A stretch of 39,994 bases of DNA, taken from NCBI GenBank assembly GCA_030432035.1, contig JAUIHO010000015.1, positions 1 to 39,994 on the forward strand. The letters run 5' to 3'. Below the pieces are notes generated by a model. It made no database searches. It was not told the DNA's origin and saw only the letters and a program-made list of their open reading frames with translations. A program made the translations under genes and the position numbers. Source of the stretch: Phycisphaerae bacterium. Its GTDB lineage: Bacteria; Planctomycetota; Phycisphaerae; UBA1845; UTPLA1. Of the stretch, positions 34,578-39,597 are shown piece by piece (the first letter of the stretch is position 1; each line of letters begins with the position of its first letter).

Positions 34578-36140
34578 TTAAATGCCGAAAGTTGCGCGGC
34601 GTTCGTTGGCTCGGGCGCGAATTTTTTTCTTTTCGTCCGCAGTTATCCGAGCCACATTTTTGTACGACATCGCCATACGCTGATTCTTGCTCAGTTTCGC
34701 CTCATTACGCATTAAAAAATCCCAGTAAAACGTATTAAACGGACAGGAATCCTCATTACCCCGCGTCTTGCGGTCGTAGGGACAGTTTTTGCAATAATTG
34801 CTCATTTTGTTGATGTAATTGGCGCTGGCGGCGTACGGCTTGGTGCCGACGACACCCCCATCGGCGTGCATCACCATGCCGAGCGTATTGGGTAACGTGA
34901 CCCAATCGACCGCATCGACATACATGCCGAGATACCAATCGCTGATGGCGCGCGGGTCGATGCCGGCGATCAGCGCGAAGTTGCCTGTGATCATTAGCCG
35001 CTGGATGTGGTGACCGTAGCCGTGCTCCACGACCTGCCCCAAGCAATCGCGCATACACGCCATGTCGGTTTCGCCCGTCCAATAGAATTCGGGCAGCTTG
35101 CCGTGTTCGTCGAGGTGGTTGCGGCTGCCGTAGTCCGCCCCTTCATGCCAATACACGCCGCGGATGAGCTCGCGCCAGCCAAGTAACTGCCGCACGAAAC
35201 CTTCCACTGAGTTGATGGGCGCTTTGCCGGCGTCGTACGCTTCGACGGCACGATCGATAATCTCGCGCGGATGCAGCAGCTTCAGATTCACGGCTGGCGA
35301 AATGCGCGAATGGTATAGCCACGGCTGATCGGTCCACATCGCATCTTGGTATTTGCCGAAATTGGGTAGGCGTTTCTCGATAAAGTCGTCGAGCGCTTTG
35401 AGCGCTGTGCGACGCGTGACGGGCCATTGGAAATGATCGAGCTTGCCCGGCAGATCGGGCAAGACGCGTTCGACCAGTTCCATCACGTCGCGCGTGATCT
35501 CATCCACCGACGGCGTATAAGGCGCGGGCGGCTGCGGTGCCGACTTAAATGTCTCGCGATTCTCCTTGTCGAAGTTCCATTCGCCGCAGACGGGCTTGCC
35601 ATCCTTCTTCATCAGGATGCCGGTCTTCTTGCGCTGCTCGCGATAGAAATACTCCATCACGAGTTCCTTGCGACCTTCGGCCCATTCGGAAAACTCAGCG
35701 GGCGTCGTCAGAAAGTGTTGATCCTCAGTGACATCCAGATCGACCTTCAGCTTGCCCGCTAGCGACTGCAGCATTTGCAACACGCGCCACTCGCCCGGCA
35801 GCGTGCAGCGCAGTTTCTCCGGCGCAAACTGTTGCACCGTCTGCTTTATGCATTGGTATAGGGTTCCGGGATTATCCTCGTCATCGAGACGGTGATAAAT
35901 CACGCGGATGTCTTGCTTCTTCAATTCCATCGCGAAATGCCGCATGGCGCTAAGAAACAGCACCGTACGCTGCTTGTGACTGGGTACCTCTCGGCTCTCA
36001 CCCGCCGCTTCCATCATCAGAACGGCGTCGCGTTTTTTGTCTATCTCCTGCAGGACGGTTGCATCACGATCGAGTTGATCGCCAAAGATAATGATGAGGT
36101 TGCGCACGTCACCGCGCGGCGGGTGAATAAAAAAGGACAA
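34578..36140 (-). CDS. Iron-sulphur bacterial cryptochrome/(6-4) photolyase (FeS-BCP, PhrB type)
   Basis: The 520-residue protein belongs to the deoxyribodipyrimidine photolyase-related (DPRP) family. The N-terminal alpha/beta domain (IIIFGDQLD...) would bind the antenna chromophore, and the helical C-terminal half binds FAD. Four Cys residues, C362, C450, C453 and C466, have exactly the spacing (88, 3, 13) of the [4Fe-4S] ligands of Agrobacterium PhrB as I recall them (C350, C438, C441, C454). His377-His378 in YGHHIQR fall where PhrB has its paired active-site histidines. This points to light-driven repair of (6-4) photoproducts. It is the last gene of an operon headed by a sigma factor; its start is 4 bases from the preceding stop. 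Confidence 0.92.
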   Translation of the reverse strand: MSFFIHPPRGDVRNLIIIFGDQLDRDATVLQEIDKKRDAVLMMEAAGESREVPSHKQRTVLFLSAMRHFAMELKKQDIRVIYHRLDDEDNPGTLYQCIKQTVQQFAPEKLRCTLPGEWRVLQMLQSLAGKLKVDLDVTEDQHFLTTPAEFSEWAEGRKELVMEYFYREQRKKTGILMKKDGKPVCGEWNFDKENRETFKSAPQPPAPYTPSVDEITRDVMELVERVLPDLPGKLDHFQWPVTRRTALKALDDFIEKRLPNFGKYQDAMWTDQPWLYHSRISPAVNLKLLHPREIIDRAVEAYDAGKAPINSVEGFVRQLLGWRELIRGVYWHEGADYGSRNHLDEHGKLPEFYWTGETDMACMRDCLGQVVEHGYGHHIQRLMITGNFALIAGIDPRAISDWYLGMYVDAVDWVTLPNTLGMVMHADGGVVGTKPYAASANYINKMSNYCKNCPYDRKTRGNEDSCPFNTFYWDFLMRNEAKLSKNQRMAMSYKNVARITADEKKKIRARANERRATFGI

Positions 36141-36144
36141 GAGG

Positions 36145-36573
36145 CTAACTCCCAGATGGAATCATCAACAGGCATAGAACAGCACGCACACTCCATACCA
36201 CTGTACGCAGCCAATTGGTTTGTACCAGTCGCCGAATCACACGCGCATCGTGCGTTTTTTCCAAAGCGCGATGACATGGCACTTGAATAAGAAATGTCGA
36301 TAGCCAAAGCAGAACAGCTAAGCCAAAACCGATCCAAGCCAACCGTTGATCGATACCCGTCGGCGGCGCGAACGCCAGCCATCCCGCCGCAATCAGCTCG
36401 ATAAACATCGGCGGCAAAACGACAAATGTCGTTAAATGGGTGTGCCGTCGCTCGTAGGTTGGAAATTCGCCCGGCGCGATCGCGGCAAACAAAGGGTAAT
36501 GCACGACCTGCACGAACCAAATCACGCCCGTCATAAAGAGCGTGGCAAACGCATGGACGAATAATAGCGTCAT
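36145..36573 (-). CDS. Small membrane protein in photolyase operon, unknown function
   Basis: I start at the ATG at 36573 (MTLLFVHAFATLF), which lies 20 bases after the stop of the upstream gene; the longer frame to 36618 would overlap that gene. The 142 residues include four hydrophobic segments: FATLFMTGVIWFVQVVHY, TTFVVLPPMFIELIAAGWLAF, WIGFGLAVLLWLSTFLI and TVVWSVRAVLCLLM. The HYPLF...HTHLTTFVVLPPM sequence contains conserved-looking histidines near the membrane, which could bind heme or metal, as an inference. No family is recognised. Tight linkage (gap of 4 bases) to the FeS photolyase suggests a shared function. Confidence 0.72.
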   Translation of the reverse strand: MTLLFVHAFATLFMTGVIWFVQVVHYPLFAAIAPGEFPTYERRHTHLTTFVVLPPMFIELIAAGWLAFAPPTGIDQRLAWIGFGLAVLLWLSTFLIQVPCHRALEKTHDARVIRRLVQTNWLRTVVWSVRAVLCLLMIPSGS

Positions 36574-36593
36574 TAAGCGGCCCGATTTTCGAA

Positions 36594-37580
36594 TTAACCC
36601 ATCGCCGGAGCACCGCATACGCAGCCCAATTTGGACAAATCAACGCGATCCGCAGCCGACTGATGTCGATCTTCTTTTTTGATTTCCCCGTGATGCAAGA
36701 GAAACGCGCCTGGCATCTGAAGGCCGTCGCCTTCCAACTTGCCCACACCGTGGCCGGCGACGAACGCCACGACGGCGCGCAGAAACACTTTCGGGCCGAA
36801 CAGCTCGGAGAAACCTCCGACACGTAAACCGAACACGCGGTACAAGATACGTCGCGGATCGCTGATGCTGTGCGCATCGCTCAATCCGTATTCGGAAAGC
36901 ACGTCACTTGCCCGCTTTTCGTCGCTCATATGCACGAAACAAACTTGCGTATTGCTCGCTTTAATCGTGTCGTAGCAGCGCGCGATATCGGCAAGCGTAT
37001 CTCGACAAAACGTACAACCGAAATGCCGAAGAAATATAACGATCGTCGGTCGCTCGTTGCTCAACTCGGCAAGCGTTTGTCCGCGTTGCGTGGCGAATTG
37101 CCCCGAACGAATCGCATCGTCAAACGCCGGTAACTCACCCTGAAACGCCCGTGGTGCATGGTGGGCGTTGTACGCGTGCACCAAGATCATGAAAAATGGC
37201 GCCCACCAAATTAGGTCGTTTGTCAAAATCGTTAGGCCAAACTGCCACGGCAATTCACCATTGATCACGGCGATCACGAAACCGATAGGGCCGAAAATCT
37301 TACCCAACAACCCCACCAAGGTAATCGGCCAATGCACAAACGGATTTCGTGCGGCAGCGTAATAACCGATTCCGTACACACCCACGATCATGCCGACGCA
37401 TTGCCAGATGCCGGGATAGAGAGGCCGATCTATCCCGATCGCATCGAACAGCACAAACGGAAACAACACAACAGCCGCACCCCACAACAGGTTGTAGGCT
37501 GCGGCTGCTACGAGCGTGTATCGCATCCACTTAGGAGGAGCAGGAAGAGAATGCGAAGGCATCGCGTTTGACTCGATCAT
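36594..37580 (-). CDS. Membrane domain fused to peroxiredoxin-like (AhpC-TSA_2/SelL-like) domain
   Basis: ATG at 37580 follows GGAG at 9 bases; the TTG upstream is discarded. The 328 residues combine two parts. The N-terminal 140 residues have four hydrophobic helices (for example TLVAAAAYNLLWGAAVVLFP and WPITLVGLLGKIFGPIGFVIAVI). The C-terminal half is a thioredoxin-fold domain of the AhpC-TSA_2 or SelL type, recognised by PTIVIFLRHFGCTFCRDTLAD, where the C-x2-C pair is at 189-192 in this numbering. The tail ends in a further Cys pair (LGCVCG). A peroxide or disulphide reductase attached to the membrane would fit protection from photo-oxidative damage. It sits between the sigma gene and the photolyase pair in one operon. 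Confidence 0.78.
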   Translation of the reverse strand: MIESNAMPSHSLPAPPKWMRYTLVAAAAYNLLWGAAVVLFPFVLFDAIGIDRPLYPGIWQCVGMIVGVYGIGYYAAARNPFVHWPITLVGLLGKIFGPIGFVIAVINGELPWQFGLTILTNDLIWWAPFFMILVHAYNAHHAPRAFQGELPAFDDAIRSGQFATQRGQTLAELSNERPTIVIFLRHFGCTFCRDTLADIARCYDTIKASNTQVCFVHMSDEKRASDVLSEYGLSDAHSISDPRRILYRVFGLRVGGFSELFGPKVFLRAVVAFVAGHGVGKLEGDGLQMPGAFLLHHGEIKKEDRHQSAADRVDLSKLGCVCGAPAMG

Positions 37581-37634
37581 GCGGTCGTTCTCCAAGGTTG
37601 CTTCGAGATTTCGTAACGCCGACCGATGCTGATA

Positions 37635-38471
37635 TCAAAATTGCAACGCGGCGTCCGCCTCTAAAGCCGAACGAATCTTAGTCACGGCCGCGATTTGTAT
37701 TTGACGAATGCGCTCCTTGCTAACGTTCATTTCTCGGCCCAACGACTCAAGCGTCTTCTTCTTGATGCCGAACTCCATAGGGAAACGCTTGCCAATCACA
37801 AATCGCTCCGTGTCGGTCAGGTCCGCCGTGTTATCATCGAGCACGATGTTCAATCGTTCGGCCAAAAACTTCTGGTCGTCCTGATGCTTCACCGCTTGCA
37901 GATCGACTTCTTCAAATTCCGGATCGAAAGGTGCGTTGACCACTGCCGTGCGCTTCGCCGTCTTGCCGGCAGCACGCGAAAACGCGCGAATGATCGCGTT
38001 GCATCCGTAAGTGCTAAACCGATAACCCCGCCACGGATCGAACGTATCGACCGCCCGAAGCAGCGCCATCATGCCCTCACCGCGTAGATCGTCGTGCTCG
38101 AGATTGGTGAACCGGTTGCGACCGATCATTTCGTATACCAACCCCAGGTTCGCCTCGGTCAATCGCGACCGTACGAGGTGATATCGCTGCGTCCAGGTCG
38201 AGTACTGCTTCTTGGTTTTTCGCGTGAGCCGCTTTTCCGCCTTCAAGTAGAGCGTACGGAGCATGTGGGCACAGTAGTGAAGCTGTTTGAACACCACGGT
38301 TTCTTCCGCCGCCGTGATCCGGCCGGTCGATTCAACCGTATCGGGCCAATCGGCGAAGACTTCCGCCTCAAAGCCGGACACTTCCATGTCCGCGTTGTAA
38401 ATGTATGGCGGCGGTACGAGCCACGTATCCAGAGCCGGCTTATCTGACTTTTCGGTGACGACGCGTCGCAT
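37635..38471 (-). CDS. Sigma-70 family RNA polymerase sigma factor
   Basis: The 278-residue protein starts at ATG 38471, with AAGGAG 7 bases upstream. Region 2 is clear (about 105-175): LTEANLGLVYEMIGRN (2.1) and DDLRGEGMMALLRAVDTFDP then WRGYRFSTYGCNAIIRAFSRA (2.2-2.4). Region 4 is clear at the C-terminus (about 215-270): LTDTERFVIGKRF...TLESLGREMNVSKERIRQIQ, with a helix-turn-helix. Region 3 is missing or unrecognisable; residues 180-210 are only a short acidic linker. An N-terminal stretch (ITAAEETVVFKQLHYCAHML) may correspond to region 1.2. It is neither a typical RpoD nor a typical ECF factor. It heads the photolyase operon and diverges from a CarH/LitR-like regulator, so it likely directs a light or stress regulon. 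Confidence 0.85.
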   Translation of the reverse strand: MRRVVTEKSDKPALDTWLVPPPYIYNADMEVSGFEAEVFADWPDTVESTGRITAAEETVVFKQLHYCAHMLRTLYLKAEKRLTRKTKKQYSTWTQRYHLVRSRLTEANLGLVYEMIGRNRFTNLEHDDLRGEGMMALLRAVDTFDPWRGYRFSTYGCNAIIRAFSRAAGKTAKRTAVVNAPFDPEFEEVDLQAVKHQDDQKFLAERLNIVLDDNTADLTDTERFVIGKRFPMEFGIKKKTLESLGREMNVSKERIRQIQIAAVTKIRSALEADAALQF

Positions 38472-38523
38472 TTGGCAGCTCCTTGGGCTGTTGAACGTTT
38501 TCTATATCAATTCGTCCAAAACA

Positions 38524-38552
38524 TTCATAGCATCCGCGTCCGGCAATGTCAA
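38524..38552 (-). promoter_or_regulatory. Sigma-70-type promoter for sigma-factor/photolyase operon
   Basis: On the minus strand TTGACA (38552-38547) and TATGAA (38529-38524) are spaced by 17 bases. The 5' leader is about 45 bases and ends in AAGGAG before the ATG at 38471. It is back-to-back with the plus-strand promoter, with only 6 bases between the two -35 boxes. Confidence 0.65.
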
Positions 38553-38558
38553 GATAAT

Positions 38559-38588
38559 TTGCAAATTCAGCCAATAATGCCCTATACT
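38559..38588 (+). promoter_or_regulatory. Sigma-70-type promoter for CarH/LitR-like regulator
   Basis: TTGCAA (38559-38564) and TATACT (38583-38588) have an 18-base spacer. The leader to GTG 38674 is about 80 bases and contains a compound repeat, listed separately. Confidence 0.6.
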
Positions 38589-38600
38589 CGGTTAATACCA

Positions 38601-38640
38601 GTTCAAACCTGGTCCGCAAGCGGCCAGGATTCGTTCAAAA
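38601..38640. promoter_or_regulatory. Candidate operator: direct repeat flanking an inverted repeat
   Basis: GTTCAAA occurs at 38601-38607 and again at 38633-38639, 32 bases apart, close to three helical turns. Between them lies an imperfect inverted repeat with outer arms CCTGG (38608-38612) and CCAGG (38624-38628) and inner arms CCGC and GCGG. It is downstream of the plus-strand -10, where a bound repressor could block the regulator's own transcription. Confidence 0.45.
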
Positions 38641-38673
38641 CGCGTAAATCAGTCATTCTAACGAGGAAAGATA

Positions 38674-39597
38674 GTGAAACCTGTCGTCTCACCCAAAGAA
38701 CTGGCACTCGCAATTGGTGTCAGCGAATCCTCCATGAAACGCTGGGCGGACAGCGGCAAGATCACGGTTTCCCGCACCGCCGGCGGCCATCGACGGATTC
38801 CGATTCACGAGGCGATTCGGTTCATCCGCGACACCCGCTCCCCACTGATTCGCCCCGATATCCTCGGTTTGGAGTCGTCCCCTACTTCGACAGATGACAT
38901 AACCACATCCGACGCGGCCCACCGCTTCAGTCGAATTCTCATCGACGGCGATACCGCCGCCGCGCGTAGTATGCTGATGGCCCTGTATCTCGACGGCGTG
39001 AGCGTGGCCGACATCATCGACGACGTCGTGCAGCCTTCGATGCAGGAAATCGGCAAGCGCTGGGAACACGATTCGACCGGCGTTTATGAAGAACATCGAG
39101 CAACGGACATTTGTATTCAGGCGATGACGGAACTGCGTCTGGCTTTGCCGCAGGTGCCGAACGCGCCGATCGCGCTTGGCGGTGCCCCCAGTGGCGATCC
39201 GTATATCCTGCCATCGATGGCGGCGGCGATGGTACTGGCGGCGGAAGGCTTTTCCGCGGTCAACTTGGGGCCGAACTCACCGCTCGGGTCATTCAGTGAT
39301 GCCGTAAACGCAAACCAACCCAAACTCGTTTGGCTGACAGTGAGCCACATCACCAATCCGGCCACTATCAATCGAAGCGTGAAGGAATTCCTCGATTGGG
39401 CGAGCCAGAAATCCCTGAAAATCATCGTCGGCGGTTTTCAGATTCAAGGGTTGGACCCCACAGTTCTGCAGGGCGTGCGCGTCGGTCGGTCGATGCGCGA
39501 ACTCGCGGCCTTCGCCCATGGCCTACACACCGGCGGTCGCGTCTCCAACAACGGCAACGGCAACGGCTCAAACGGTGGTTCGCACTCCGACCAATAA
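38674..39597 (+). CDS. MerR-type regulator with CarH/LitR-like cobalamin-binding domain
   Basis: GTG at 38674 follows GAGG with a 7-base gap. The 307 residues comprise a MerR-like winged helix (1-60: VSPKELALAIGVSESSMKRW, GGHRRI), a four-helix B12-binding cap (about 78-155) and a Rossmann B12-binding domain (about 163-285). The cap holds W130-x9-E140-H141, matching the W-x9-EH signature of the AdoCbl photoreceptor CarH. In the Rossmann part the usual ExHxxG/DxHxxG loop reads D175-P-Y177-I-L-P180, so the cobalt-ligating His is Tyr and the Gly is Pro. The tail is a low-complexity Asn/Gly stretch. CarH/LitR proteins repress light-inducible genes in the dark. It diverges from the sigma-factor/photolyase operon and probably regulates it. 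Confidence 0.85.
   Translation: MKPVVSPKELALAIGVSESSMKRWADSGKITVSRTAGGHRRIPIHEAIRFIRDTRSPLIRPDILGLESSPTSTDDITTSDAAHRFSRILIDGDTAAARSMLMALYLDGVSVADIIDDVVQPSMQEIGKRWEHDSTGVYEEHRATDICIQAMTELRLALPQVPNAPIALGGAPSGDPYILPSMAAAMVLAAEGFSAVNLGPNSPLGSFSDAVNANQPKLVWLTVSHITNPATINRSVKEFLDWASQKSLKIIVGGFQIQGLDPTVLQGVRVGRSMRELAAFAHGLHTGGRVSNNGNGNGSNGGSHSDQ

Follow-up and report, generated by a model that had tools for sequence, protein, structure and literature searches.

The window analyzed here, that is, the whole stretch of 39,994 nucleotides, carries near its right end the gene of a putative transcriptional regulator, here termed P0001, which combines a BldC-type helix-turn-helix (HTH) with a cobalamin-binding domain (CBD) and is transcribed divergently from a run of four genes. 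The features of the locus are as follows, groups A and B being the two groups of homologues defined below.

34578-36140, minus strand: DPRP-type photolyase/cryptochrome-related protein (E 4.4e-80)
36145-36618, minus strand: 157-aa membrane-type protein, a recurrent neighbour of the P0001 family
36594-37595, minus strand: SelL-related redox protein, on the same strand as the sigma factor
37635-38471, minus strand: divergent sigma-70 family factor
38508-38534, plus strand: operator-like array 1, 9-bp direct repeats CAATTCGTC CAAAACATT CATAGCATC
38559-38588, plus strand: predicted P0001 promoter (TTGCAA, spacer of 18, TATACT), kept in the sister species
38627-38653, plus strand: operator-like array 2, GGATTCGTT CAAAACGCG TAAATCAGT
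38674-39597, plus strand: P0001, BldC-type HTH and CBD regulator, 307 aa, GTG start
38686-38811, plus strand: HTH of P0001, residues 5-46 (HTH_17 / BldC-like)
38917-39135, plus strand: B12-binding_2 four-helix cap, residues 82-154 (E 1.1e-12)
39061-39063, plus strand: codon of W130, the adenosyl-stacking Trp (Trp in 90/95 homologues)
39091-39096, plus strand: codons of E140-H141 (H141 in 62/62 of group A, Arg in 33/33 of group B)
39178-39180, plus strand: codon of G169, coupled to W220
39196-39213, plus strand: ligand loop D175-P-Y177-I-L-P180 (Tyr177 codon at 39202-39204)
39331-39333, plus strand: codon of W220, two residues ahead of the T222-x-S224 (SxT) tail motif
39430-39435, plus strand: G253-G254 of the B12 motif

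A ribosome-binding site rated good (GAGGAAAG, 38663-38670) precedes the GTG start, and the sister genome encodes a counterpart, 89% identical, which was the sole match to P0001 in a scan of genome contigs. The helical cap is followed by the Rossmann half of a B12-binding domain. By sequence, the closest protein in the PDB is CtMerR (8jbs, phmmer E 2.8e-33), with TtCarH next. The HTH matches the NCBIfam BldC model NF033787 with an E of 1.3e-8 (34.6 bits, for a cut-off of 77 bits), and the score of P0001 against the NCBIfam CarH equivalog (50.4 bits) is far below its cut-off of 400. The label CarH-like, under which an earlier note on this DNA had placed the protein, is thus a loose one, the closest solved protein being CtMerR and both the HTH and the upstream repeats being of BldC type. 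An AlphaFold model computed from a two-sequence input gave a Foldseek match that agrees with the sequence-based fold assignment; given its pLDDT of 54, the model serves for this fold match only and not for any claim on the distance between Tyr177 and cobalt.

The earlier note had listed W130, E131, E140-H141, D175, Y177 and P180, with an intact W-x9-EH motif, and the translation bears out each of these residues. It had also placed a Tyr where the cobalt-binding His is expected, and the alignments to CtMerR and TtCarH agree, with Y177 sitting on the ligand His in the same register: the phmmer alignment with CtMerR runs without gaps from approximately residue 163 to 255, and the Tyr177 column corresponds to His177 of TtCarH and His204 of CtMerR. 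Across the whole CBD, no nearby His takes the ligand column, and none appears to replace the ligand, because conservation of His in the C-terminal domain is otherwise confined to H141 and, to a lesser degree, H132, and these two lie on the side of the upper face. On the other hand, the suggestion that Pro180 is a further deviation was not borne out, since the published motif D/ExHx2G/P...SxT/V...GG (PMC9304148) allows Pro, and only the His is therefore missing from the ligand motif of P0001. In place of SxT/V the protein reads T222-V-S224, the family having mostly SxS, and G253-G254 are present. Likewise, the Glu at position 131 was read correctly but has little meaning, for the residue after the cap Trp varies among proven photoreceptors, being Arg in CtMerR and Gln and Tyr in photocobilins (PMC11796333).

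Relatives of P0001 were collected at the level of the family, the order, the class and the phylum, most of them from draft genomes. Of 392 sampled genomes of the phylum, 97 gave a match at E 1e-10, a minority of them through the CBD or the HTH alone, and 95 aligned full-type planctomycete homologues, most of them 30-49% identical, were used for the residue counts and the tree; outside the phylum the sampling covered CtMerR and plasmid records, so that Tyr forms may also occur in other phyla. Column 177 holds Tyr in 83 of the 95 homologues, His in three, Ser in three, Gly in two, and Thr, Phe, Asn and Asp in one each, and D175 is present in 92/95. The Tyr at the ligand column is far beyond chance and is not the oddity of one protein. 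Two groups can be distinguished: group A (n=62), which includes P0001 and has EH at 140-141, and group B (n=33), which has ER. W130 and E140 are found in 90/95 and 93/95 of all homologues, and in 58/62 and 61/62 of group A, where H141 is invariant (62/62); G199 (95/95), P203 (0.99), G253 (0.98) and G254 (1.00) are near invariant in both groups.

In a tree built with the trait columns masked and with CtMerR, TtCarH and the Rhizobium protein, all His-bearing, as outgroups, the 95 homologues fall on one side of the outgroups (SH-aLRT 93). The simplest reading of this topology is that His changed to Tyr once, at the base of the clade, with three scattered returns to His, although the position of the root is the weakest point of the tree, because the outgroups are only three and their branches long. 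The replacement of His141 by Arg in group B (33/33; e.g. L008, L039, L044, L142-L167) also maps to one event on the tree, and most group B proteins have an altered GxxxP stretch. Two homologues adjoin each other at L123 (divergent) and L150 (tandem), and in several further genomes one copy of each group occurs; mixed oligomers are therefore possible. The genome of P0001 itself encodes a second CBD-like protein of 302 aa (L002, G000:C334:10980-11537), in which the ligand motif reads EAEEIS, likewise without the His, and a Tyr replaces the cap Trp; MetH is the only one of the three B12-binding_2 proteins detected in this genome whose motif is intact.

These counts bear on the possibility that P0001 carries out ordinary CarH photochemistry with a lower ligand taken from another His. 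The three homologues that have His at 177 (L095, L111 and L145) retain W220, and in P0001 itself H225 lies close by; however, about one sequence in five has H225, and across the family the only conserved His residues are H141, which belongs to the cap and to group A, and partly H132. We consider this explanation very improbable.

Five positions of the CBD separate the clade from all three outgroups: R142, R155, G169, Y177 and W220. At position 220, which adjoins the SxT nucleotide-tail motif, a small residue has given way to Trp, and the change marks the same clade as Tyr177. It is also coupled to position 169, since an aromatic residue occupies position 220 in every one of the 92 proteins with G169 (90 G-W, one G-Y and one G-F pair), whereas Cys220 and Ser220 pair with Val and Thr (V-C and T-S, besides T-Y). 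Because W220 stands two residues before SxT/S, strand periodicity would place it on the same face as the residues of the nucleotide-tail site. This proximity and the coupling to G169 suggest that the cofactor site has been rebuilt in its lower half; the upper half, that is, the adenosyl cap, has not been.

Alternatively, the same pocket may hold another chromophore, such as heme, protoporphyrin, a bilin or a cobamide whose lower base differs; Tyr177 would then serve as its ligand, or Trp220 would stack on that base. Heme is commonly ligated by Tyr, Asp-x-Tyr is conserved in the P0001 family, and SOUL heme-binding proteins recur near the homologues (9/80 loci). Photocobilins couple the same fold to a bilin, but they do so through an added globin domain (PMC10979010), and P0001 has no globin-like extension. 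Moreover, the adenosyl cap would have no obvious role for heme or bilin and the sequence hints at no particular pigment, which makes this explanation unlikely.

The genomic context was examined in 80 neighbourhoods of up to ~19 kb each, clustered by gene family, and in 40 random loci from 15 of the genomes as a control, with same-locus matches excluded. A strict marker set, comprising photolyase, DPRP, FolE, fasciclin, CMAS, DUF1365, DCC1 or the 157-aa protein, was detected in 51/80 homologue loci against 0/40 random loci (p 2e-13), and in 48/70 of the Tyr-bearing loci alone. The recurrent neighbours include CPD photolyase, DPRP, GTP cyclohydrolase I (FolE), fasciclin, SDR-DUF2867 and SRPBCC proteins, and further SOUL, lipocalin, CMAS, DUF1365, FAD amine oxidase, DCC1-like and sigma-70 proteins, several of which are encoded by genes under class II LitR control in Pseudomonas (PMC9758184). 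It is hence highly likely that P0001 regulates a light regulon. We conclude that it is very probably a regulator of the response to light or photo-oxidative stress that is barred from the His-on/bis-His cobalamin chemistry of CarH; that it is not His-on we hold with still greater confidence. Outside the phylum, plasmid pTH2c of Rhizobium sp. TH2 carries the gene of a His-bearing HTH-CBD relative (L175:5986-6780), which is absent from the plasmid's table. It is transcribed divergently from a fasciclin gene, an arrangement that recurs at many loci of planctomycetes.

Gapped-word counts in 78 upstream regions of homologues and 492 random segments revealed CAAATCGTT-type words in tandem with a 9-bp period; the word AAATCGTTCA, for instance, occurs in 19/78 upstream regions against 2/492 random segments. 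A matrix detects a three-unit array (>99th percentile of shuffles) in 62/78 upstream regions, a count biased upward by the training of the matrix on these very regions, and 59 of these 62 arrays share one orientation. The training does not in this way affect the bias in orientation, the counts of words or the control in which the reversed pattern was run over the whole genome (1 vs 11 and 2 vs 10 matches). The arrays at 38508 and 38627 are the two best of the 40 kb, flank the predicted P0001 promoter and are largely retained in the sister species. BldC binds directional 9-bp direct repeats of the form AATTXXXX(C) (PMC5859096), which the putative P0001 operator, AATTCGTCC AAAACATTC ATAGCATCC, fits.

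Other matches to the operator pattern in the genome were rejected as a regulon, most of them lying inside or between unrelated genes. The exceptions, which we keep as candidate members, are a BLUF gene, in both species, and a DCC1-like gene, in the sister species only. The latter (L179:996-1481, G002) encodes a thiol-disulfide oxidoreductase and has a 9-bp repeat array ~20 bp from its start, and DCC1-like genes adjoin P0001 homologues elsewhere as well. The BLUF gene (G000:C264:24296-24568, L194 and L207; in G002, L189) encodes a stand-alone blue-light receptor of 146 aa, with a CAAATCGTT-type array upstream of the gene that has been kept in both species although the flanks have diverged. It is a possible partner or target of P0001. 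Elsewhere (L198 / L050, G034:C4:87644-88964), a BLUF gene lies ~0.2 kb from a group B homologue, in convergent orientation.

In a close rival to the reading that we favour, which we regard as a substantial possibility though short of probable, P0001 would be a B12-free switch in which the CBD has been turned over to protein-protein contacts or structural dimerisation and light is perceived by other means, be it a short LOV partner, a BluF-like partner, or redox or singlet oxygen along with the adjacent sigma factor. Precedents exist, since class II LitR works without B12, carries a B12 domain that is degenerate and acts on similar genes via PmSB-LOV (PMC9758184), and BluR of E. coli is antagonised by BluF (PMC3509220). 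The BLUF gene of the genus, with its conserved operator-like array ~60-90 bp upstream, points the same way, as do the residues unable to ligate that occur at 177. Within the order, BLUF is present in 8/38 family-positive genomes against 4/76 negative ones (p 0.014, kinship ignored), yet this leaves 30/38 positive genomes without it, and BLUF was rejected as a general sensor partner on this account. A motif scan of the 80 neighbourhoods likewise found no BLUF or LOV gene, although in G034 a BLUF gene does lie ~0.2 kb from a homologue. A B12-free switch leaves the near-invariance of the adenosyl-cap Trp, Glu and His and of the GG motif without a reason.

It is this constraint on the cap, together with the presence of an adenosyltransferase in nearly all host genomes, that leads us to favour adenosylcobalamin (AdoCbl) held without a His; P0001 also keeps the Trp that is lost in the B12-independent CarA (PMC9304148), which speaks for continued use of the adenosyl site. 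The adenosyltransferase (PF01923) is encoded in 118/121 family-positive genomes, that of P0001 included, against 44/53 negative ones (p 0.001), a weak link because the gene is common in negative genomes too; the genomes without it cluster mostly in two families, and we dropped the co-occurrence as proof of AdoCbl use. Against AdoCbl, and in favour of a B12-free protein, stands the H177A mutant of TtCarH, which remains monomeric and fails to bind B12 (PMC8221060); a protein deprived of this His could thus have lost its cofactor as well. A Trp so close to the tail site could leave the nucleotide tail no room, and the change of H141 to Arg in group B (33/33) also counts against AdoCbl. S, G, T, N, D and F are also tolerated in column 177, and since some of the proteins concerned (L132, L135 and L160) still lie in light clusters, no ligand at this position seems essential. 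The earlier note had proposed altered cobalamin binding, another tetrapyrrole or B12 independence; this was the right set of options, among which sequence cannot choose.

Taken on its own, the proposition that AdoCbl is the cofactor of P0001 is evenly balanced. The fuller reading, in which P0001 holds AdoCbl without a His and is a light-driven repressor of its own promoter and of the divergent genes, falls a little short of that, and we put it forward tentatively. The scheme that we infer, from DNA binding, repression and light as the signal to AdoCbl binding, photolysis and a blue shift, would make P0001 the planctomycete form of a light or photo-oxidative-stress repressor. In the dark, the BldC-type HTH would bind the tandem 9-bp repeats that surround the P0001 promoter and repress both P0001 and the divergent run of sigma factor, SelL-like protein, membrane protein and photolyase, and the CBD, of CtMerR/CarH type, would act as a light-responsive oligomerisation switch. 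The lower axial His would have been lost once, at the base of the clade, to a Tyr adjoining the invariant Asp, with Trp220 over Gly169 forming a rebuilt wall beside the nucleotide-tail motif. AdoCbl would be held by the adenosyl cap (W130, E140, H141, G199 and P203) and the GG motif, and the place below the cobalt would be taken by Tyr177 or left empty. Light would break the Co-C bond, the cap would relax, the oligomer would dissociate and the operator would be freed, with no His177/His132 ligand switch of the CarH style. In such a base-off, His-off state, AdoCbl is expected to have its absorption closer to 460 nm than to 520 nm, and a blue shift would thus be expected in P0001.

The characterised B12 photoreceptors in the open-licence literature that we surveyed use a lower axial His, and the same literature yielded no paper linking planctomycetes with a CarH-type photoreceptor. 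Since the P0001 family, phylum-wide in planctomycetes, has a Tyr where the cobalt-holding His would be, its light sensing must be modified or B12 must have been given up. As a more doubtful extension, its members may constitute phylum-wide B12-domain photoreceptors that hold AdoCbl without a His, through a tyrosinate or with no protein ligand, and that have a rebuilt tail site and blue-shifted absorption; with similar reserve, their photochemistry may be distinct from that of CarH and CtMerR. If AdoCbl is still used, His ligation would not be required for B12 light sensing, and a blue-shifted variant might become available for optogenetics. If it is not, B12 would have been lost independently once more from a repressor of a light regulon, in this case with retention of the adenosyl pocket. 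In both cases, the family provides planctomycetes with a candidate light regulator for which a putative operator is defined, and the published mining signature GxxH would miss the whole clade.

Among known systems, CtMerR of Chloracidobacterium thermophilum (PDB 8jbs/8jbt, PMC11796333) shares with P0001 the BldC-like HTH and the same CBD. It has been shown to be a green-light AdoCbl receptor, with His204 of its GxxH motif on the cobalt (PMC11796333). Of the CtMerR-type signature of SignatureFinder, P0001 has GxxW (GKRW), EH and GxxxP (GPNSP), whereas GxxH reads GDPY, so that the protein is not positive for the signature as a whole; it differs from CtMerR in this motif, in W220 and in G169. CarH and class I LitR (Thermus, Myxococcus) share the fold, W-x9-EH, the GG motif and the photolyase context, but P0001 lacks the lower axial His of D/ExHx2G/P and, in place of the RxWERRY recognition helix of CarH (PMC9304148), reads SSMKRWADSG. 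As both the His and RxWERRY are absent, we do not class P0001 as CarH. The comparison with CarA of Myxococcus made in the earlier note does not hold either, for CarA keeps the full B12 motif and EH and has lost the Trp of W-x9-EH, the opposite of the pattern in P0001, which keeps Trp and EH and lacks the His (PMC9304148). Class II LitR (PmlR/PplR, Pseudomonas) has a likewise degenerate B12 site and a regulon (photolyase, CryB, FolE, fatty-acid synthase, SDR and FAD oxidoreductase) that is alike the P0001 context. Its Rossmann half, however, is nearly unrecognisable, whereas that of P0001 keeps D, GG and G-x3-P, and its partner is a short LOV protein, whereas the motif scan found no LOV motif among the neighbours of the P0001 family. 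BldC of Streptomyces resembles P0001 in its HTH and in its directional 9-bp direct repeats, which likewise have AATT-like and C positions, but, unlike P0001, is a protein of 68 aa without a sensor domain. In context and architecture, as judged from sequence, P0001 resembles a light repressor of the LitR/CarH type.
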